Origin: Carnobacterium inhibens subsp. inhibens DSM 13024 | Lineage (GTDB): Bacteria > Bacillota > Bacilli > Lactobacillales > Carnobacteriaceae | Direction: 5' to 3' | Assembly: GCF_000746825.1 (NCBI RefSeq) | Contig: NZ_JQIV01000006.1 | Coordinates: 1,178,001-1,242,000 of the forward strand | Length of the DNA stretch: 64,000 nt | In this document: piece by piece, positions 25,420 to 43,960 of the stretch | How positions within the stretch are numbered: the first letter of the stretch is position 1 | How the letters are laid out: the number at the start of each line of letters is the position of its first letter | Translations under genes and position numbers: made by a program | The notes under the pieces: generated by a model | The model's input: only the letters and a program-made list of their open reading frames with translations | What the model was told of the DNA's origin: nothing | Databases searched by the model: none

Positions 25420-26037
25420 TCAAACTGTTAGTGCTGTTAACATCTTTTCTATTATCCCTGGTTTTGGGACGAAATACAATGAAGATTCTAATCGATCGCC
25501 TAAATAATAAAATTCATTTTTAATGATCATGATAGAATCATCGTATTGGTTTTGTTCTAAATACACACTGCTCATAATGGCGCCGAACATATCTTCAATA
25601 ATGATGGGCACAGACGTGATCAAGTTAGCATCCATTAGTTTCATTACTGCATTCAAAAATGAATTAACGAGTATGTTTACCAACTCTTGCAAGGCTGAAT
25701 TAGCCAAGTCTTCCGAGTAAGGTGTATTTTCCGGCAACATCATAGCTACGATCGTCTCTGAGACTTGTTGATCGACTGTGAAAAGAAAGACACCTTCTGC
25801 ATCTCCCATCATCTTAATGATGACGGATTTTATCACAGCTTCTTCCGGCATGATCTGCTCATAAACATCTGCATATTCCATCATTTCAATAACTGGAACC
25901 GTCATGTGGACCGGTTTTTCAATCAATTGAGATAAACTCGTTGCTGCATGTCCGCCACCAATATTGATCACTTCTTTTAGTACATCTAATTCCACTGCTG
26001 AGTAGTTAGACTTCACTGTACTCACCGATTCTTTCAT
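25420..26037 (-). CDS. cheC: CheY-P phosphatase CheC
   Basis: About 198-205 residues with two phosphatase motifs, LDVLKEVINIGGGHAATSLS near the N-terminus and LANSALQELVNILVNSFLNA in the middle. CheC dephosphorylates CheY-P and interacts with CheD. ATG 26037 would overlap cheA by 32 bp and lacks a ribosome site. GTG 26016, behind GGTGAG, gives a family-like start (MKSNYSAVELDVL) and is a good alternative. Confidence 0.93.
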   Translation of the reverse strand: MKESVSTVKSNYSAVELDVLKEVINIGGGHAATSLSQLIEKPVHMTVPVIEMMEYADVYEQIMPEEAVIKSVIIKMMGDAEGVFLFTVDQQVSETIVAMMLPENTPYSEDLANSALQELVNILVNSFLNAVMKLMDANLITSVPIIIEDMFGAIMSSVYLEQNQYDDSIMIIKNEFYYLGDRLESSLYFVPKPGIIEKMLTALTV

Positions 26038-28075
26038 TGCAAATAGCCGTTACATCCAAGATCAAAATGATGCTTCCATCTCCTAGAATGGTTGCGCCTA
26101 AGTATTTCTTCAGCATACTCAATTCTTGGCCTAGTTTTTTGATCACAATTTCTTGTTGTCTGACTAAATCGTCTACGACCAAGGCATTGTAGCTGTCTCC
26201 TTGTTTTACCAATACCAAGTGCAGATTGGTTTCTTCTATCGGTTCAATACCAAGTGATTGGTTCAAACGAACGACCGGAACAGCTAACCCTTCGTATTTA
26301 TAGACTTCACGGTTGTGAATACGGATAATGTCTTCTTCGGTTACTTTAACAATCGTTTTGATGATCCCTAATGGAATTGCAAAAGAATCTTGTCCCACTT
26401 TTACAAGCAAGGATTGAATAATCGATAACGTTAAAGGCAAATTGATTTTGAAAACTGTTCCTTGGTTGACTACACTTTCCAATTCAACTGTTCCGCCTAG
26501 TTCAGTGATTTTTTGTTTAACAGCATCCATTCCTACACCACGGCCAGAAATACTGGTCACTTCTTTAGCTGTTGAAAATCCTGGATGGAAAATCAATTGT
26601 TGGATCTCTTTGTCGCTCATTCCTTCAGTTGAGATCCCTTTTCGTTCAGCACTTTCTTTAATAATGGTAGGATTAACACCTTTTCCATCATCGCTCAACG
26701 TCAATACTACTCGATTGCCTTCTTGATAAGCAGTAATTTTAATGGTTCCTTTTGGATCTTTGCCTAATTTTACACGATCAGCGGGCATTTCTACTCCATG
26801 ATCAGCTGAATTACGCAACAAATGCACTAAGGGTTCACTTAGTTCAGAAACAACGGTACGATCTAATTCCGTATCTTCACCTTCGATAACCAACTCAAAC
26901 TCTTTACCTAAATCGTTTGCTAAGTCTCGGATCATGCGAGGAAAACGAGTCATTACCGTACTGACCGGCTGCATTCTGATTTTCAAAACCAAATCTTGTA
27001 ATTCAGAACTGATCCTTGCTACGTGGTCCAACGGTTCTTTCATTTCAGATACTTGCATTTGGTCGCTTAAGTCTTCTAATCGCGTACGGTAGATTACCAA
27101 TTCTGACACTAAATTCATAAAGGAATCTAATTTTCCGATATCTACTCTGATGGATTGATTCATTGCATGACTTTGGCCTTTTGCTTTAGTTGTTTTTTCA
27201 ACTTGAGCAGGTTTAGCAGCACCTTCAACGGTTGTAATTGCTGTTTGTTCCACTTGATTTTCTTGCGGCTCAGACGGAGTCGTTTCAGGTTCTTTCACGA
27301 TTAAATCTTCTGCTTGTTGAACCGTTTGAATCAATACTTCTTCAATTTCACTATTGTCTAACGCCAAGTTGAAAACTGTTTCTTCATCCAATTTGCTGAC
27401 ATAGATCAGTTTAAACACACTGCCGAAATCGTCATTTTCAAGAACTTCTGTGCCTGGTTCAGAATATAACACATCTCCATGTTGTTCCAACTTACTCATC
27501 ACAAGATACACGCGGGCATTTTTCATTGAACTATCTTCATCAATTCGGATAGCCAATACATAAGCATTGTAACCATCTTCTTTTGCTGCTTCAATGATCA
27601 TTAAGTCTGAGTCTTCTACATTTTCTAAGGCTAGATTAAGGGATGAACTTGTTTCTTGTTCCATTATCACTGTTCCTTGTGCTGTAGAACTATCACCGGA
27701 AGCTACATTATCCAACCGTTGAATCAAGTTTTTGATATCGCGTTCTGCTTCATTTCCTTCTCTTAAATCTTCCACTAAGTCAGACAAGGTATCTAAACAA
27801 TCAAATATTAGAGCGATTGAAGTTGCATCGGCCGGAATGATCTTTTGCTTCAATAAATCAAATACGTTTTCCATTTTGTGGGTCAATTTAGCCATTGTAT
27901 CGTAGCCCATTGTTGCAGCCATTCCTTTAATCGTATGAGCTGACCGAAACATAACGTCTACAATACTGGAATCTTCAGGATGGTTTTCTAATTCAAGTAC
28001 TTGTTCATTCAAACTTTGTAAATGTTCGTCTGTTTCTTCAAAAAATAAATCGAGGTATTTACTATTTTCGTCCAT
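26006..28075 (-). CDS. cheA: Chemotaxis histidine kinase CheA
   Basis: 689 residues: P1 phosphotransfer domain (His47 in SAHTIKGMAATMGYD), P2 CheY-binding domain (about 160-265), an Ala/Glu-rich linker, P3 dimerisation (SIRVDIGKLDSFMNLVSELV), P4 kinase with the N box HLLRNSADHGVEMP and G boxes, and P5 CheW-like regulatory domain. It phosphorylates CheY and CheB. ATG 28075 follows AAAGGGAGGG; a start six codons earlier lacks a ribosome site. Confidence 0.97.
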   Translation of the reverse strand: MDENSKYLDLFFEETDEHLQSLNEQVLELENHPEDSSIVDVMFRSAHTIKGMAATMGYDTMAKLTHKMENVFDLLKQKIIPADATSIALIFDCLDTLSDLVEDLREGNEAERDIKNLIQRLDNVASGDSSTAQGTVIMEQETSSSLNLALENVEDSDLMIIEAAKEDGYNAYVLAIRIDEDSSMKNARVYLVMSKLEQHGDVLYSEPGTEVLENDDFGSVFKLIYVSKLDEETVFNLALDNSEIEEVLIQTVQQAEDLIVKEPETTPSEPQENQVEQTAITTVEGAAKPAQVEKTTKAKGQSHAMNQSIRVDIGKLDSFMNLVSELVIYRTRLEDLSDQMQVSEMKEPLDHVARISSELQDLVLKIRMQPVSTVMTRFPRMIRDLANDLGKEFELVIEGEDTELDRTVVSELSEPLVHLLRNSADHGVEMPADRVKLGKDPKGTIKITAYQEGNRVVLTLSDDGKGVNPTIIKESAERKGISTEGMSDKEIQQLIFHPGFSTAKEVTSISGRGVGMDAVKQKITELGGTVELESVVNQGTVFKINLPLTLSIIQSLLVKVGQDSFAIPLGIIKTIVKVTEEDIIRIHNREVYKYEGLAVPVVRLNQSLGIEPIEETNLHLVLVKQGDSYNALVVDDLVRQQEIVIKKLGQELSMLKKYLGATILGDGSIILILDVTAICNERIGEYSEV

Positions 28076-28116
28076 AGTGTCCCTCCCTTTCATTGTTTCT
28101 CGTAGTTTCTTTTGTG

Positions 28117-28887
28117 TTATATTTTTTCATAAATGAAAGAAGCTCGTTTAATAAGTCCGTACTTCTCTGGACTATAAATGGTTTCTGTCGCTCCAGTGAA
28201 AAACAAGCCGCCAGGAACCAATGCATCACTGAATTTTTGGTACAATTCTTCTTTTACTTCATTTTTAAAATAAATGGTCACATTGCGGCATACGATCACG
28301 TTGTATCCTGTTCCAAAGCGGTCCCCAATTAAATCATGTTTTTTAAAAGCTACTTTATTCTTGATTTGTTCAGATAAATAAAATGCATTATCTTCTTGAG
28401 TAAAGTAGTTCTGGCGATTCTTTTCATCAACATTTTTGATTTCTACACTTGAGTAGATTCCTTTTTTAGCTTTCGCTAAAATTGTTTCATCAATATCTGT
28501 AGCCGTTATTTTTTCCGCATGCTTGATGTTATGATTGGTCATGATCATAGCCAACGAATAAGCTTCTGCTCCGGTAGAACAAGCAGCACTCCAGATTTTT
28601 AAAGCACCAAACTTTGGCTCTAAATACGATACCATCAATTCTTCGAATTCATCAAACACTTCTTTATTACGGAAAAAATCCGTTACATTAATGGTAATGT
28701 AATTCAAAAAGTTCTTTTTCACTATAGGATCTGATTGTATTTTAACCGCATATTCTTCCAACGTTGCTGCACCGGTATTCTTCATGATCGTGCCAATCCG
28801 TCTTTGAAGCTGTTTTTCTTTGTATCCTTCTAGATTAATATTTAAATGTTCTTTTGTCCACGCGTAAAAAAAATCGAAATTCAACAT
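28117..28887 (-). CDS. cheR: Chemoreceptor methyltransferase CheR
   Basis: 256 residues. The helical N-terminal domain has YKEKQLQRRIGTIM and is followed by the SAM-binding fold with IWSAACSTGAEAYSLAMIM and the FTGATE motif near the end. It methylates glutamates of chemoreceptors for adaptation. It starts 0 bp after cheB and precedes cheA. Confidence 0.96.
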   Translation of the reverse strand: MLNFDFFYAWTKEHLNINLEGYKEKQLQRRIGTIMKNTGAATLEEYAVKIQSDPIVKKNFLNYITINVTDFFRNKEVFDEFEELMVSYLEPKFGALKIWSAACSTGAEAYSLAMIMTNHNIKHAEKITATDIDETILAKAKKGIYSSVEIKNVDEKNRQNYFTQEDNAFYLSEQIKNKVAFKKHDLIGDRFGTGYNVIVCRNVTIYFKNEVKEELYQKFSDALVPGGLFFTGATETIYSPEKYGLIKRASFIYEKI

Positions 28888-29910
28888 TTAGCTTCGCATC
28901 CTTATCATCCAATTGATCAATTCTGATATTTCATCTAAACTGGCGATCTCGTCAATAACACCTTTTTGTACCGCATTACCTGGCATCCCATAAACAATTG
29001 ATGTCTCTCTGTTTTGAGCCACTGTAAAACCGCCTGCTTTTTTAATTTTAGCTAACCCGCGAGCTCCGTCATGACCCATTCCGGTTAAAATAAAGCTGAC
29101 TAAATCACTGCCATAAACTTCAGCAGCAGCTTCAAATAAGTAATCGACAGCTGGTCTCACACCATGTAGCTTATCTACTTCATTTAGTTTGATGCAGTTA
29201 TCTTCAATAATCATATGGTATCCACCTGGAGCAACATAAACGACACCGCCTTTGATTGGCATACCATCTTCGGCTTCTACTACATTTGCTGCAGATTCTT
29301 TGTCCAACCGTTTAGAAAATGACGTTGTAAATCCTTTTGGCATGTGTTGAACAATAAAAATAGGAAAGCTTAAGTTTTCCGGCAATGATCGAATAATCGA
29401 AAACAATGCTTTAGGTCCGCCGGTTGAAGCACCTATCGTAATGGCTTTTACTTTCTTTGGTAATCTTTTTTCTAATTCATTTGCCTGCAACAGTGATGTT
29501 TCTAGTGGTCGTTCACTTTTTTTCTGTTCAAATAAAGGTTTGATTTTATCTGCTACTTCGTTTTTGAATCCATCTGTTTGATTTCTGATATCATGTGGCT
29601 TTTCAATAAAATCCATTGCTCCCAAGTCCAAAGCAGCGATTGTATTGTCTTCTCCGCTAAACGAACTCATCATGATAACCGGTATAGAGTAATCTTTCTT
29701 TATGATCTCAAGTGTTTCTAGCCCATTTAATCCCGGCATTTCAATATCCAATGTGATCACATCAGGTTGAAGCTGCGGAATTGCCTTTAGCGCATCTCGA
29801 CCATTTCTAGCCGTCCCGATAACTTCCAATCCCTCAATACTCGCTATCGTTTCACTGATAACTTTTCTCATGAAAGGAGAATCATCCACAACCAGTACTT
29901 TTATATTCAC
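28888..29910 (-). CDS. cheB: Receptor methylesterase/glutamine deamidase CheB
   Basis: 340 residues. N-terminal receiver with Asp9-Asp10 and phosphoacceptor Asp55 (VITLDIEMPG), a linker (about 125-150), and a C-terminal esterase domain with the catalytic Ser in TIGASTGGPKALF, His in IFIVQHMPKGF and Asp in TGMGHDGARG. It removes receptor methyl groups on activation by CheA. It lies between cheD and cheR. Confidence 0.97.
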   Translation of the reverse strand: MNIKVLVVDDSPFMRKVISETIASIEGLEVIGTARNGRDALKAIPQLQPDVITLDIEMPGLNGLETLEIIKKDYSIPVIMMSSFSGEDNTIAALDLGAMDFIEKPHDIRNQTDGFKNEVADKIKPLFEQKKSERPLETSLLQANELEKRLPKKVKAITIGASTGGPKALFSIIRSLPENLSFPIFIVQHMPKGFTTSFSKRLDKESAANVVEAEDGMPIKGGVVYVAPGGYHMIIEDNCIKLNEVDKLHGVRPAVDYLFEAAAEVYGSDLVSFILTGMGHDGARGLAKIKKAGGFTVAQNRETSIVYGMPGNAVQKGVIDEIASLDEISELINWMIRMRS

Positions 29911-29934
29911 TCTTTATTACTCCCCTATCCCTGT

Positions 29935-30417
29935 TTACAGTACAATTATTTCTCTATTCACCATTCGAATATTCACTGTAAAGGTGGCTAAGTCTACGCT
30001 CATTGTTCTGCCCATGTTTCCTCCAGTATGATTGGCTAATAAAGGAATCCCTAGTTGTTTCAAAACTTCTTCAACCGCAAGTACATTTCGATCTCCGATA
30101 CTTCCATGCGGAAGATCTTTAGAAAATTGAAACATACTTGCGCCACCTGCTATTTTAGCCACAAGCGGATTATTGTTGGTTCGTTTATTTATTTCTGATA
30201 CCATGTGAGGAATAGCTAAATCAGCAAATTTTTCAACTTTGCTGGCATCTTTGAACGCACTGCTCTCAGGCAGCATGATGTGGCTCAATCCGCCGATTTT
30301 TGTTTTAGGATCATAGAGCGCAATGCCTACACAAGAGCCCAACCCTACTGTTATTAACGTTTGAGGTTGTTGTGCAACTTTATAATCTGAGATCCCAACC
30401 CTTAATTCATCTGCCAT
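29935..30417 (-). CDS. cheD: Chemoreceptor glutamine deamidase CheD
   Basis: 160 residues with catalytic Cys29 in TVGLGSCVGIALYD and His46 in GGLSHIMLPES. CheD deamidates receptor glutamines and is regulated by CheC, which is also encoded here, so the Bacillus-type CheC-CheD adaptation loop is complete. Located between the first cheW and cheB. Confidence 0.96.
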   Translation of the reverse strand: MADELRVGISDYKVAQQPQTLITVGLGSCVGIALYDPKTKIGGLSHIMLPESSAFKDASKVEKFADLAIPHMVSEINKRTNNNPLVAKIAGGASMFQFSKDLPHGSIGDRNVLAVEEVLKQLGIPLLANHTGGNMGRTMSVDLATFTVNIRMVNREIIVL

Positions 30418-30445
30418 ACATCTTTCACCATTCCTCTAACCATTC

Positions 30446-30895
30446 TTATCGATTCATCAATGACAGCAATTCATGTTCGCCATATTCTGAAAAAATACTA
30501 TTCACATCTAATTGTAAAATGATGCCCTCTTCTGTTCTGATAAAAGCCATCACATAACTAGCTGCTTCTTGATTTCTTTTCTCTGATACTTCATGATCAC
30601 TATTGTCAAAAGAACGAATAGTGGTTACTTTATCTACTGCTAAACCAATCTTTTTCTCTTGCCAACTTACAACGATCACTTTAGTTTCATCGATCACTTC
30701 TGTTTTACGTTGGAAGAACCGTTCACTTAAATCAATGATCGGTAAAATACCGTCCCCGTAATCTATCGCTCCTAATACATAGTCAGATGTATCTGGGATC
30801 TTTGTTAATTCTTCGACATGAATGATTTTTTCAGTTACTTCGATTGGAACGGCAAAACTTTGACCACCACTATTAAACACAACAAACTTTTCCAT
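30446..30895 (-). CDS. cheW: Chemotaxis adaptor protein CheW (first copy)
   Basis: 149-residue CheW domain (FVVFNSGGQSFAVPIEVTEK; LGAIDYGDGILPIIDLSERF; IILQLDVNSIF). It couples the receptor to CheA at the polar array. It directly follows the single chemoreceptor gene of the island, so it is probably that receptor's main adaptor. No receiver domain is present, so it is not CheV. Confidence 0.93.
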   Translation of the reverse strand: MEKFVVFNSGGQSFAVPIEVTEKIIHVEELTKIPDTSDYVLGAIDYGDGILPIIDLSERFFQRKTEVIDETKVIVVSWQEKKIGLAVDKVTTIRSFDNSDHEVSEKRNQEAASYVMAFIRTEEGIILQLDVNSIFSEYGEHELLSLMNR

Positions 30896-30984
30896 TATTC
30901 TACTCCTCCGTTTTATTTATAGGATAATGAACGTGTACCAACTTTGTGAGCATACGCCACATTCCATTCCCATTGTTTTATTTT

Positions 30985-33057
30985 CTAATCCAACTTAAAT
31001 TGATTCGTTTCTTCTTTTAATTCATTCGCAATAGATTCTAATTTGGCGATACTTGAAGAAAATTCTTCCATTGTAGCTAAAATTTCTTCCGCATTTGCAG
31101 ACACTTCCTCAGTTCCAGCTGAGTTCTCTTCTGCTGAAGCAGCAATATTTTCAATCGCTACCACTGTTTCATCTTTTTTAGCTGAGATAACAAAGCCTAA
31201 GCTAGCTACATTCATAATACTTTCAACCAATTTATCCATTTGATCCGTTACTTTATTTGATGAATCGATTGCTTCATTAATCGTTTTCGTTTGGACTTCA
31301 CTTTCTGCATGGGATTGTTCTACTTTGTTGACCATTTCATTTGATTTTTCTTGGATTGTTTTGATAATTGCTGCAATATCTTTTGTTGATTCGTCACTCT
31401 TCTCAGCTAATTTTCTGATTTCATTAGCAACAACTGCAAATCCTCGACCACTTTCTCCTGCACGAGCAGCTTCAATAGAAGCATTCAATGCTAACAGATT
31501 AGTCTGGTCAGATATTCCATCAATAACTTTAACAATTTTTTCAATATTTTGAATATCTTCATTTACATCGTGAATACTATCGCCTAATTTATTCATTGTC
31601 TCAATCGTGGTTTCCCAATTCTCATGAACGACAGCCATCATTTGAGAGTTTTTACCATTTGCAATCGTCGTATCATCGGTATGTTGACCCATTTTTTGGA
31701 TGTTTTGATCAATTTCACCTAATGTTTTAGATAATTCTTCCATTTTCCCTACTGTATCCTCAGTATCTTGTGTTTGGATACTTGTTGCTTGAGCAATACC
31801 CGTGATTGTTTCAGATACTTCTTCTGTTGCGGAAGTGGTTTGTTTAGAAATATCGTTCAATGTTTGAGTCATATCCGTTAAATGATTGCTTTTTTGTTGA
31901 ATGCCTCCTACCATTTCTCTGAATTGATGCATCATTTTATTAAAAGCAAATCCAATTCTTCCGATTTCATCACTATTTTCATTAATTGTTTTTCGTTTTC
32001 TAAACGCTTTAAAGTAAGGTTTATTTGGTAGAATATTAAAATCTTCGCTGGTAATTTCTGCAGTCAAATCTCCAGCTTCAACTTTACTGAAAGCTTTAGT
32101 CAATGCTTTGGCAATCGTCATAACATATTTTGAAGCCATCAATGCACTTAGTATGGCGATAATGATGCCGATAACTAAACCAATAAGAGCTGATCGTTTT
32201 GTAGCATTTACTTCATTAGCCATTTCGTCCTCGCCAACTACTCCATACACAGTCATTCCTAATCGGCTGGCTTTAGCATAGTAGCTGTCAATTTCTTGAT
32301 TATTATTTTCATCATAAATATAACCTGTTTGGTCTGTTGCCTCTTTGACTAAGGTACTGTCACTAATATTCGTTCCAATTTTCTTAGGATCATTATCCAT
32401 CAAATAATCCCCTGATTCAGAAAGAACAAAAAAGTGTCCAGTATTGCCGTTTTGTATAGAAGTTAAGTAGGTATTCATTCTCTCTAAGTTTAAATCAATT
32501 GCTAAAACACCATAAAAAGTGTCATCTACAATGATTGCTCTAGAAAGAGTCATTGCCATAGACCCTGTCTTTGCATCACGATAGGGCTCACTCCAAATCA
32601 TTGCGCCATTACGTTTGACTGCTCTTTGGTACCAAGTTGTTGCACTTGCATCAAAGTCTGAGTCTAAATCTTCAACTGTTCCCATGACTTCTTGATTTTC
32701 AGGTGCATAATAAGCATTTCCTATGTACATACTATTGTTCAAAACAAATTGTAATTCTTCTTGAACGAAGGCCTGAGCATCTTCATCCTCAGCAACTTCT
32801 TGAAATTCTGGCTTTTCGGCTAAAGAATTAATGGTATTTTCTAATTCTTGACCAATCCAGTCTAGTTGCGTTGTGAATTGTGTGGCTAGATTCTTTTCAC
32901 TTTGTTCAATACGCTGAGATAGCAAATTTTGTGTACTGTAATAATTCATGACCAACACAATAATGATCGGTAGTGTGATCATTACAATCAAAGTAGGGAT
33001 GATCATCAATCTAATACTTTTTTTCCTTTGACTCTTCTTTTCACGTAGCTTCTTCAC
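30985..33057 (-). CDS. Methyl-accepting chemotaxis protein
   Basis: 690 residues. A basic N-terminus, membrane helix 1 (about 17-40), an extracellular dCache-type sensor (about 41-280, with [20 protein letters not shown]), membrane helix 2 (about 290-315), HAMP, and a long cytoplasmic coiled coil with the signalling tip [23 protein letters not shown] 33057 is chosen because AAGGAGG lies 9 bases before it; longer frames have no ribosome site. First gene of the chemotaxis operon, driven by a sigma-28 promoter. The ligand is unknown; dCache domains often bind amino acids. Confidence 0.93.
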
Positions 33058-33165
33058 CAACAAGCTCCTCCTTATGTAAAACTTCTCTAAAAACAATATT
33101 TTTTTACTAACTGTATTTTATTAAAGTTCTCATTGCTCTTTTTATTTAAACGTTTATTAAATAGC

Positions 33166-34556: not shown

Positions 34557-35498
34557 ATGAAGGAGCACACAAAAATAATGATACTAAAAGAACGCACAAA
34601 ATCAGTCACTTACCGCGTATTAGAGTCTTTGAATTATCGAATGAGATTAACAGCTGAAGAAAAAACAAATTATGAAAATCAAGTGAAGGGTTTTGCTGGT
34701 GAAATACAATTTGATTCCTACATGGCTCAAGCTAAAATTTCTGGACTCGTATTGAATGATCTCATACTAAGCCACCGAGATACTAGTTTCCAAATCGACT
34801 CTCTTCTTATTACAAATGATTCTGTCTACTTATATGAAGTAAAAAATTATGCCGGTTCGTACTTTTATAAAGAGGAGTCTTTATTTACAGAATCAGGTTA
34901 TCAAATTCTTAATCCACTCAGACAAATCGACAGAAGTGTGACTTATCTACAAAATGTGATGCTTCGCATAGGATATACATTGCCCATACACCCCGTTATT
35001 ATTTTCATTAATCCAGACTTTATTCTCTACTCTTTCTTACCAAACAAGTTATTCTTATTTTCAAATCAATTACCTAAGCACTTTAATGCTTTATCGAATC
35101 AAAAAAAATTAATAAAGAATGAACATTTGGAACTTGCGAATAAACTTAAAAAGTTACACAATGAAAATTATCGCCCTGATAATTTACCTACTTATCATTT
35201 TGATCAATTAAAGAAAGGAATCATATGTCCAATTTGTTTTTCAACTAGTCATATAGACACAAGACAAAATTACGTTTGTTCTATATGTGGACACAAAGAA
35301 ATCATTACAAGTGTGATTGAACGTAGCATAATAGAATTCAAAGACCTATTTCCTGATAAACCTATTATGACAAATTTGATTTACCAATGGTGTGGAGAAG
35401 TTTATTCCAAAGAACGCATTCGAATGATATTAAAAAAGAATTACCAGAATCATTTATCCGGGCAAAAGACTTATTATAGTGATAAACAGCTATCATAA
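34557..35498 (+). CDS. NERD-domain protein with C-terminal zinc ribbon
   Basis: 313 residues. The nuclease-related (NERD) domain covers about 40-150, with QIDSLLITNDSVYLYEVKNY carrying the D...EVK catalytic-type pattern of restriction-like folds. A C-terminal zinc ribbon has CPIC and CSIC pairs (about 223-245). The family may process nucleic acid, but activity is unproven. Starts possible at 34557 or at the ATG 34578 behind GAAGGAG. Lone plus-strand gene; the tandem hairpin array lies downstream and no clear intrinsic terminator was seen. Confidence 0.85.
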   Translation: MKEHTKIMILKERTKSVTYRVLESLNYRMRLTAEEKTNYENQVKGFAGEIQFDSYMAQAKISGLVLNDLILSHRDTSFQIDSLLITNDSVYLYEVKNYAGSYFYKEESLFTESGYQILNPLRQIDRSVTYLQNVMLRIGYTLPIHPVIIFINPDFILYSFLPNKLFLFSNQLPKHFNALSNQKKLIKNEHLELANKLKKLHNENYRPDNLPTYHFDQLKKGIICPICFSTSHIDTRQNYVCSICGHKEIITSVIERSIIEFKDLFPDKPIMTNLIYQWCGEVYSKERIRMILKKNYQNHLSGQKTYYSDKQLS

Positions 35499-35540: not shown

Positions 35541-35580
35541 CTCACTTTTAGAGAAGAATGCTTAGTCACGGAAAAGTGAG
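35541..35580. repeat. Decayed flanking copy of the hairpin repeat
   Basis: CTCACTTTT (35541-35549) and AAAAGTGAG (35572-35580) keep the outer arms of the unit, while the inner TACGTCA part is degenerate. It precedes the regular array by 13 bp. Confidence 0.6.
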
Positions 35581-35593
35581 GTCGTTTTTTAGG

Positions 35594-35844
35594 TCTACTT
35601 TCACGTCAAGTACCTATTGACGTAAGAGTGAGTGCATTTTGTTAGTTCACTTTTACGTCAAGTGCCTGATGACGTAAGAGTGAGTGCATTTTGTTAGTTC
35701 ACTTTTACGTCAAGTGCCTGATGACGTAAGAGTGAGTGCATTTTGTTGGTTCACTTTTACGTCAAGTACCTAATGACGTAAGAGTGAGTGCATTTTGTTG
35801 GTTCACTTTTACGTCAAGTACCTAATGACGTAAAAGTGAGGCTT
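35594..35844. repeat. Tandem array of five 52 bp hairpin units
   Basis: The ACGTC marker recurs exactly every 52 bases (35603, 35655, 35707, 35759, 35811). Each unit holds CACTTTTACGTCA, a 9-base loop (AGTGCCTGA or AGTACCTAA) and TGACGTAAGAGTG, then the spacer AGTGCATTTTGTTAGTT. Neighbouring units also pair across the spacer. Units differ by few bases (GTGCCTG versus GTACCTA), so the array has expanded recently. It fills the space between the NERD gene and the permease terminator; no gene lies inside. Confidence 0.93.
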
Positions 35845-35864: not shown

Positions 35865-35909
35865 AAAAAAACGTTCAGCACCCACCTATAAGATAGAATG
35901 CTGAACGTC
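35865..35909 (-). terminator. Terminator after the NCS2 permease
   Basis: ACGTTCAGCA (35871-35880) pairs with TGCTGAACGT (35899-35908), followed on the minus strand by seven T. Confidence 0.88.
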
Positions 35910-35920
35910 TTGTATTTTAG

Positions 35921-37327
35921 CTAAACTGTTTCGCTTTCCATCACCGGAGTTTCTTTAAGAATAATATTTAAAACTAAGGTAACGATCGTTCCAGCTGAAA
36001 TCCCAGATGAGAATAATCCACCAAGAATTCCTGGTAGCCCAGCGACAATTTCAGGTCTGAATGATACACCAAGGCCCACACCCAAACCAGCAGCGACAAT
36101 AACCAAATTGCGGTTGTCAAAATTGACACGTGATAATGATTTAACACCAGAAGCAGCTACATTTCCAAACATCAATACTCCAGCTCCACCAAGTACAGCC
36201 ATAGGCATAATTGAAACTAACGTCGCAAATTTAGGTAAAAAGCTCATCGCCATTAAAAGGACACCAGCTGTTATCGCTACTGAACGAGAAGCATTGCGAG
36301 TTAAGGGAATTAAACCAGCATTTTGACTAAATGTAGCTACTGGACCTGATCCCATTGCAGGTCCGATAAATGAACCGACTCCATCTGCACGAACACCATT
36401 TGCAATGTCTTCATCCGTTAATTCTGTTTCTGTTACGGCTCCAATTGTTTGCATAACACCCACTGTTTCAATAACGGTTACTAGATAGCCTGAGATAAAC
36501 GGAATAGCAAATTTCAAATCAAAATTGACACCATATTTGAACAATTGAGGCATAGCAAACCAGTTAGCTTGAGCAACTTGATTAAAATCAACCATTCCAA
36601 GCGGAATACACATGACATAACCAGCAACGATCCCAATCAGAACAGCTGCAGGTCCAATTTTGACACTGCCATAATGATTTAATAAAACAATCAATAAGAA
36701 GACAATTGTTGCAATTGCTAGATTAAGAGGCGAACCGTAGTTGGCTGCACCAACTCCACCAGCCACCCAATCAAAGGCTACAGGCATCAACGTTAATCCC
36801 ATCAGTGAAATAACGGTACCTGTAACAACAGGAGGGAAAAATTTCATTAGCGGTTTAATAAAATAACTCAAGATGATTTCTAAAACGGCTCCCATCATCG
36901 TTCCACCAAAATAACCAGCAATACCGCCACCCATTGTGTTGATAACCGCATTTGCTGGACCAACAAATCCAAAATCGGTTCCCATAATCGTTGGAAGACC
37001 GGCTCCTACACGAAACCATTTTGGCCCAATTCCTTTAGATTGAATAATTGAAACAACACCCGAGCCTAACAACGCTGCACTAATCATATATGAGGTGTCC
37101 GCGACTCCAAACCCTGCCATACCTGAAATCACTAAAGGTACAGCTACGATTCCTCCAAAGGCTGTCAATATATTTTGAAATCCTAAAAGGGTCATCAATA
37201 CAAATCCTGGCTTATCGTCTACTTGATAAATAAGAGTGGATTCAGGTTTCGGTGTGACCTTCGCTTGTTTTCTTTCTCTTTTCGGCAATACGATTGTTCC
37301 TGCTGGACGTTTCATTCTTTCTTCCAA
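35921..37327 (-). CDS. NCS2-family nucleobase permease (xanthine/uracil type)
   Basis: 468 residues with about 12-14 membrane segments and the NCS2 signature QNAGLIPLTRNASR at about residue 335. It imports a purine or pyrimidine base with a cation. PurR-type boxes upstream favour a purine, most likely xanthine (PbuX-like). TTG 37327 is chosen because AGGAGGG sits at the right distance; ATG 37315 is an alternative and a longer ATG frame contains the ribosome site. Confidence 0.88.
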   Translation of the reverse strand: MEERMKRPAGTIVLPKRERKQAKVTPKPESTLIYQVDDKPGFVLMTLLGFQNILTAFGGIVAVPLVISGMAGFGVADTSYMISAALLGSGVVSIIQSKGIGPKWFRVGAGLPTIMGTDFGFVGPANAVINTMGGGIAGYFGGTMMGAVLEIILSYFIKPLMKFFPPVVTGTVISLMGLTLMPVAFDWVAGGVGAANYGSPLNLAIATIVFLLIVLLNHYGSVKIGPAAVLIGIVAGYVMCIPLGMVDFNQVAQANWFAMPQLFKYGVNFDLKFAIPFISGYLVTVIETVGVMQTIGAVTETELTDEDIANGVRADGVGSFIGPAMGSGPVATFSQNAGLIPLTRNASRSVAITAGVLLMAMSFLPKFATLVSIMPMAVLGGAGVLMFGNVAASGVKSLSRVNFDNRNLVIVAAGLGVGLGVSFRPEIVAGLPGILGGLFSSGISAGTIVTLVLNIILKETPVMESETV

Positions 37328-37401
37328 AATAACCCTCCTATTAAATACGAACATTAATTTTAATAATACACTTATATTTCGTTAATAATTAACACTTTTA
37401 T

Positions 37402-43924: not shown

Positions 43925-43960
43925 CACTCTTTCGTAAGAGACCATTTGACGGAAGAATGG
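43925..43960. repeat. Decayed single copy of the TGACGTAAGAGTG hairpin repeat
   Basis: CACTCTTTCGT (43925-43935) and GACGGAAGAATGG (43948-43960) correspond to the arms of the 52 bp repeat family, with several changes. Located between the sRNA candidate and the pepF terminator. Confidence 0.45.

Follow-up and report, generated by a model that had tools for sequence, protein, structure and literature searches.

In a 64,000-nucleotide stretch of the chromosome of Carnobacterium inhibens subsp. inhibens DSM 13024 (the whole stretch is referred to here as the window), five copies of a 35-bp palindrome lie in tandem, one every 52 bp, just beyond a gene for a 313-aa protein with a NERD domain and a zinc ribbon. 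Arrays with this site and a nearly fixed step are dispersed over the chromosomes of the genus, NERD genes and arrays are associated in several genera of Bacilli, and the sequence of the site correlates with that of the protein. We favor, with a probability of roughly 0.55, the reading that the repeats are phased double-stranded binding sites of the neighboring NERD protein, the gene-side array having been amplified and its copies dispersed.

Each repeat would thus be a double-stranded DNA site, a 35-bp palindrome of two half-sites of ~13 to 15 bp. DNA makes one helical turn per 10.4 to 10.5 bp, and the 52-bp step would amount to five turns, so that successive copies would face one side of the helix. 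The neighboring protein would bind the sites as a dimer, with multiple dimers in a row, and may cleave DNA as a nuclease. Many genes of the NERD family would own a private palindrome; the gene-side array, usually just downstream, would amplify, presumably through the protein, and copies would settle elsewhere in intergenic DNA, and the sites there would then be kept, perhaps to the benefit of the cell. The overall logic would be that of repetitive extragenic palindromes (REPs) and the REP-associated tyrosine transposase (RAYT), except that a nuclease-like NERD protein would take the role of the transposase.

It also seems rather probable that these arrays represent an undescribed family in Bacilli, in which a NERD-zinc-ribbon nuclease and a private palindrome go together, with helically phased 52-bp arrays, gene-side amplification, spread over the chromosome, and several orthogonal systems per genome. 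We found no account of NERD genes accompanied by tandem palindromes in the open-access literature that we searched. If the reading is true, NERD, a nuclease-like domain that is widespread but whose role is unclear, would gain a concrete DNA partner, there would be an explanation for one class of palindrome arrays between genes in Bacilli, and many natural protein-palindrome pairs would be available for reading out DNA recognition. Should the proteins disperse the sites, they would have arrived independently at the way of life of REP/RAYT systems; should they organize chromosomes, they would constitute a new site-specific chromosome system.

Geometry and dispersal of the arrays

The first-pass annotation of the window, made from its letters alone, had described five hairpin units spaced exactly 52 bases apart, and this layout is confirmed: the sites fall within positions 35596 to 35838, each of 35 bp, with spacers of 17 bp (Table 1). 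The count itself needs qualification, as a degenerate sixth unit precedes the five full sites and unit 1 departs from the pattern at 2 positions. Tandem Repeats Finder delimits the array with a period of 52, 4.9 copies, and 94% matches, and a relaxed single-site pattern with up to 3 mismatches matches 6 times in the window, whereas 100 shuffles average 0.02 matches. The commonest site form in the window is CACTTTTACGTCA followed by nine bases and TGACGTAAGAGTG. Each array holds two kinds of dyad, one within the unit and one across the spacer, and the half-sites could pair either way.

The unit is not confined to this locus, in keeping with the repeat family that the annotation had supposed. 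The window chromosome (genome size, 2.75 Mb) carries such sites at nine places, six of them with at least two units. Across 18 genomes of the family Carnobacteriaceae, the single-site pattern matched 4, those of the window genome and of three other species of the genus, and a reversed control pattern matched none; the pattern also matches Atopococcus tabaci, which belongs to a different family of Lactobacillales. When length was left free, 62 of 69 matches measured 35 bp and 35 of 45 neighbor gaps measured 17 bp. As four loci of this set were found by BLAST with the window array and the others by single-site patterns, it is the fairer set from which to judge the step.

A sequence-only model of two adjacent units (R1), made from 29 gapless rows and with the 52-bp step built in, matched in all six genus genomes. 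Among 395 sampled genomes of the order, nine matched, with strong matches in G167 and the six genus genomes and weak ones in G013 and G340; the match in G167 has the same coordinates as that in the A. tabaci genome. With no more than 150 candidates scored in each genome, the numbers of arrays are minimum values. We scanned 56 stretches for sites, 55 of them around listed R1 matches and one at the window locus. This set, chosen by R1 and so with the step built in, gave 143 sites, 141 of them of 35 bp, and 69 of its 76 gaps were 17 bp; four gaps of 69 bp correspond to one missing unit. At the same threshold, a 400-kb sample of a genus genome (G003) gave no sites. The scan resolved 60 places in 54 of the 56 stretches, and 54 of these places hold at least two units, mostly 2 or 3. 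Even in arrays whose sequence has diverged, the 35-bp length and the 17-bp spacer are retained.

Near-identity among the units had been taken in the annotation as a sign of recent expansion. This fits the window array and other gene-side arrays, whose units are near-identical, but not the dispersed arrays of the genus, which are mostly diverged. Neutral tandem duplication without function could likewise yield near-identical units such as those of the window, but we give that explanation almost no credence, as diverged arrays keep both length and core positions and unrelated sequences share the step beside one gene family. A lone perfect stem-loop of similar sequence in an Endomicrobiellum genome (locus L024, 4824-4858) was set aside; it looks like an ordinary terminator with a chance likeness.

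NERD-zinc-ribbon genes and their palindromes

The 313-aa neighbor matches PF08378 (NERD) with an E value of 4.5e-18 and 66.2 bits against a family cut-off of 22.1, and the domain was found in all nine homologs scanned. In 30 loci, the 27 full-length homologs invariably share E49, D53, Q79, D81, E94, K96, N97, and the four Cys. We take the conserved acidic and polar residues to be a PD-(D/E)xK motif, and by its sequence the protein appears to be nuclease-like. No convincing match to it was found among solved structures. Its PADLOC scores for Cas10 are marginal (E of ~1e-3) and were taken as noise.

Evidence of association between gene and array is apparent throughout the genus, with the window protein's closest homolog adjoining an array in all six genomes, on one side in G000, G002, G003, and G005 and on both sides in G001 and G004. 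In A. tabaci, an array lies 2 bp from the closest homolog, which shares 53% identity with the window protein. Homologs at E 1e-10 are present in 76 of the 395 order genomes, often in multiple copies, and a sample of 398 genomes from the phylum added 5 more of the class, two of them with weak matches.

If the gene matters, homologs of other sequence are expected to lie beside other palindromes, a prediction that we tested on 61 NERD loci (30 first loci, 20 chosen further copies, and 11 from other Bacilli, with many more listed). The strict test required a pair of palindromes that match in length and resemble each other by at least 65%, at any step from 38 to 70, in flanks of 800 bp, measured from the open fragment where genes are interrupted. 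It was passed by 17 of the 61 loci and 18 of the 122 flanks, with steps of 50 (one), 51 (two), 52 (13), and 53 (two). Fifteen of these 18 flanks are downstream of the gene, and the arrays begin 4 to 291 bp into the flank. Four of the 17 loci are the main loci of the genus and A. tabaci with the window-type motif, and the remaining 13 have other motifs. None of 673 control windows of 800 bp passed; these came from the G003 sample and 17 control stretches and hold more coding DNA than the flanks. With the likeness condition dropped, a center spacing of 51 to 53 was seen 29 times at the first 30 loci versus 2.8 expected.

The palindromes beside these homologs differ in sequence: G009 has ACTTGTTCACAGAC beside one NERD copy and TGAGTTGGAACGATA beside another, and the G042 homolog has ACTAGTCGCTATAT. 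G788 has at least five NERD-zinc-ribbon genes, four of which (L272 to L275) are followed by tandem palindromes of four sequences at 52 to 53 bp (one at 104). Across 31 loci, protein identity and the similarity of half-sites, written by eye, are correlated (Spearman, 0.384; 0 of 2,000 permutations). At one locus of G007 (L194), a long array has two alternating palindromes, and the same kind mostly recurs every 102 to 106 bp.

Dispersal of a second motif is seen in G009. A model of its gene-side array (R2), run on the 18 family genomes, gave 178 matches in G009 itself (both strands and overlapping frames counted), spread over at least 15 contigs, one weak match in G013, and none in the 16 others. 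Of 103 sites at 17 G009 loci, 101 have a length of 35 bp, and 69 of the 81 gaps measure 17 bp, with double counting where loci overlap; the arrays reach 11 units. Dispersal and geometry thus recur in G009, but the preference for convergent genes described below does not (2 of 15 classified rows, or 1 of 12 distinct places).

Competing explanations

Several observations weigh against reading the arrays as binding sites of the NERD protein that it helped to disperse. The strict array test is failed by 44 of the 61 NERD loci, fewer than two spaced palindromes are found at 13 of 50 loci in a relaxed test, and both other NERD copies of the window genome (L219 and L220) lack a detectable array. At the conserved locus, the NERD gene is interrupted by a frame change in G002 (G002:C8:1101377-1102305) and by an in-frame stop in G003 (G003:C2:2111530-2112465), yet both genomes retain many high-scoring dispersed arrays, as scored with a matrix derived partly from their own sites. 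A profile search in which all candidates were scored found their other copies to be more distant, no more than 44% (G003) or 37% (G002) identical to the window protein; either these gene losses are recent or the arrays can do without the NERD protein. Among the G009 matches listed, the contig of the gene has only those that flank the gene, with no clustering near it. An AlphaFold2 model from two sequences reached a pLDDT of 41 and is unusable. Conservation speaks for the favored reading, with a reservation. Of the 60 genus places, 43 form 12 groups in which both flanks are shared, one group merging the arrays found on either side of the NERD gene. Within these groups, identity is 76% at mid-spacer and 48 to 52% at spacer, loop, degenerate, and flank positions versus 84.5% at core positions, the last value being inflated, as arrays were found by motif and those that lose it go unseen. 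Finally, as a further point against it, 82.2% of arm cells are paired versus 78.6% in shuffles, and 0 of 500 shuffles were as high.

This excess in arm pairing bears on whether the units act as RNA. Tandem RNA hairpins serving as a terminator or 3'-end cassette, one of the guesses of the annotation, would suit the placement of the arrays. By gene calls from a crude open-reading-frame script, 39 of the 60 genus places lie between convergent genes (13 are codirectional and 8 divergent) versus 11 to 15% of adjacent gene pairs in the G003 sample, depending on the gap length required, and the strict NERD-flank arrays are mostly downstream of a gene. Single units fold well as RNA, and the spacers of several families hold T- or A-tracts. 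An excerpt of PMC8355165 describes clustered hairpin terminators as series of stem-loops that succeed one another downstream of genes, a likeness to our arrays, which differ from that account in having no U-tract right after the stems, a nearly base-exact spacing, a sequence conserved in the family, and an association with one gene family. In the window, the T-tract starts six bases past the stem. A terminator scan of the five sites on both strands gave no call, a weak test, as the same scan also missed the stem-loop beyond the array, and at several A. tabaci loci the left gene has, by eye, its own terminator-like hairpin before the array. The bias toward convergent genes is not shared by G009. 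An Rfam scan gave no match at gathering score.

The arms themselves do not co-vary strongly. The covariation score is 0.204 versus 0.150 for shuffles, a small excess that relatedness, which was not removed, could yield. In 59 units, the pairs 5/31, 10/26, and 12/24 vary freely and pair near the shuffle level, with many C-C, G-G, and C-A cells, and 8/28, 17/19, and a few others pair above it. Extension of the stem into the spacer, as a 45-nt hairpin and a 7-nt tract, was rejected, only the first flanking position clearly pairing (P = 0.0015; second position, P = 0.07). The spacing is nearly base-exact, a precision that an RNA role would not require and that calls for an explanation at the level of DNA, and we consider an RNA cassette quite unlikely. 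Because the excess in arm covariation is small, the length is fixed at 35 bp, and the step is 52 bp, a double-stranded site read by a protein from one face of the helix is favored, and among the three guesses of the annotation the protein-binding array fits best.

A protein-read site need not be dispersed by a nuclease, however. The arrays may instead be chromosome-organizing or DNA maintenance sites, with NERD as a resident binding or repair protein. Where dnaA could be placed (five genomes), a single chromosome arm holds 50 of the 56 places, and 49 of the 56 are no more than 0.5 Mb away from the NERD gene. Taken as independent loci, and with contigs treated as circles, 22 of 27 lie within this distance (P = 9e-6), or 20 of 25 with the gene's own locus excluded, a nearness that also counts for the favored reading. 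Convergent gene pairs are similarly common on the two arms of G003 (18 versus 21), and gene order therefore does not explain the one-arm bias. A terminus macrodomain was considered and rejected in this form, as GC-skew sampling puts the G003 terminus at ~1.2 to 1.3 Mb, away from the main cluster at 0.45 to 0.97 Mb left of dnaA. Chromosome sites would further be in line with places held in common by species whose flanks approach saturation, and phase-locked sites suit a cooperative protein array. Mobile carriage of the NERD gene was likewise set aside: with two query proteins for each collection, no homolog turned up among 72,556 plasmid records and 50,697 phage records, nor did pattern and tblastn searches of viral contigs find one. 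This again fits a chromosomal role. Unlike housekeeping sites, however, the motif varies among genera and among paralogs of one genome, and in two genera of the family, g2 (G006, G011, and G015) and g6 (G010), homologs are lacking at E 1e-8. We regard this alternative as possible but rather unlikely.

Comparison with REP systems bears on dispersal by the NERD protein. In excerpts of PMC2817692 and PMC3733652, REPs, bacterial interspersed mosaic elements (BIMEs), and RAYTs are described as species-specific intergenic palindromes in regular arrays, with an enzyme gene flanked by palindromes and co-variation of enzyme and repeat; there are several types per genome, and numerous REPs sit between convergent genes or downstream of genes. 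Our arrays resemble them in that the associated gene has palindromes alongside that change together with it (17 of 61 loci by the strict test), an analogy of logic. They differ in the enzyme, which here has NERD and a zinc ribbon and is not a Y1 (IS200/IS605-type) tyrosine transposase, for which no genome-wide search was made. They differ also in the site, which has a fixed length of 35 bp in the genera measured, a step of ~52 bp, and weakly co-varying arms; the 29-row alignment has no conserved GTAG/CGTC tag, and the columns beside the palindrome are variable. The arrays thus lack two defining features of REP/RAYT systems, the GTAG/CGTC tag and a Y1 transposase at the associated gene. A REP/BIME-type repeat or a miniature inverted-repeat transposable element that an unrelated transposase mobilizes while the NERD gene hitch-hikes would also produce dispersed intergenic palindromes with genus- or genome-specific sequences. 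We think this very unlikely, as there is no such tag adjoining the palindrome and the association recurs for NERD homologs with different motifs, although transposase genes were not searched for.

Other systems resemble the arrays in part. Like CRISPR arrays, which have palindromic repeats of ~35 bp, short spacers of even length, and a nuclease-like gene nearby, they combine such repeats and spacers with a gene for a putative nuclease alongside. Their spacers, however, are 17 bp and in the window and G009 gene-side arrays near-identical rather than unique, and the gene is of the NERD-zinc-ribbon kind. Sites of the matS/parS type are palindromic organizing sites concentrated in one part of the chromosome, as the sites described here are; these differ in forming phased tandem arrays and in varying by genus and paralog. 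The EFAR repeats of Enterococcus faecalis, another species of Lactobacillales, are likewise small palindromic intergenic repeats.

Features of the window

The genes on either side of the window array converge on it: the plus-strand NERD gene, which the annotation had overlooked and which stops 44 bp short of the degenerate unit, and a minus-strand permease gene (Table 1).

Table 1. Coordinates of the array, its sites, and neighboring features in the window
Feature	Position	Strand	Remarks
Gene for 313-aa candidate partner protein	34557-35498	+	NERD domain, residues 44-151; Cys ribbon C224, C227, C241, C244
Degenerate outlying array unit, 36 bp	35543-35578	none	Score 23/28; within BLAST piece 35542-35632 (77%)
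Complete tandem array, period 52	35585-35840	none	Short T-tract midway in each 17-bp spacer
Palindromic site 1	35596-35630	none	35 bp
Palindromic site 2	35648-35682	none	35 bp
Palindromic site 3	35700-35734	none	35 bp
Palindromic site 4	35752-35786	none	35 bp
Palindromic site 5	35804-35838	none	35 bp; 13-bp arms perfectly complementary
Stem-loop beyond array	35871-35908		Minus-strand U-run after stem; -24 kcal/mol, minus strand
Xanthine/uracil permease family gene, convergent neighbor	35921-37354	-	
Lone diverged site of window-array family	43925-43959	none	2-3 units there in 4 other genus genomes

The stem-loop beyond the array is likely the terminator of the permease gene. The lone diverged site is flanked by a plus-strand gene (~92 aa) and a minus-strand gene. 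Near the array locus, positions 26006 to 33096 hold a chemotaxis-like gene cluster, as read from the translations, which suggests a motile species.
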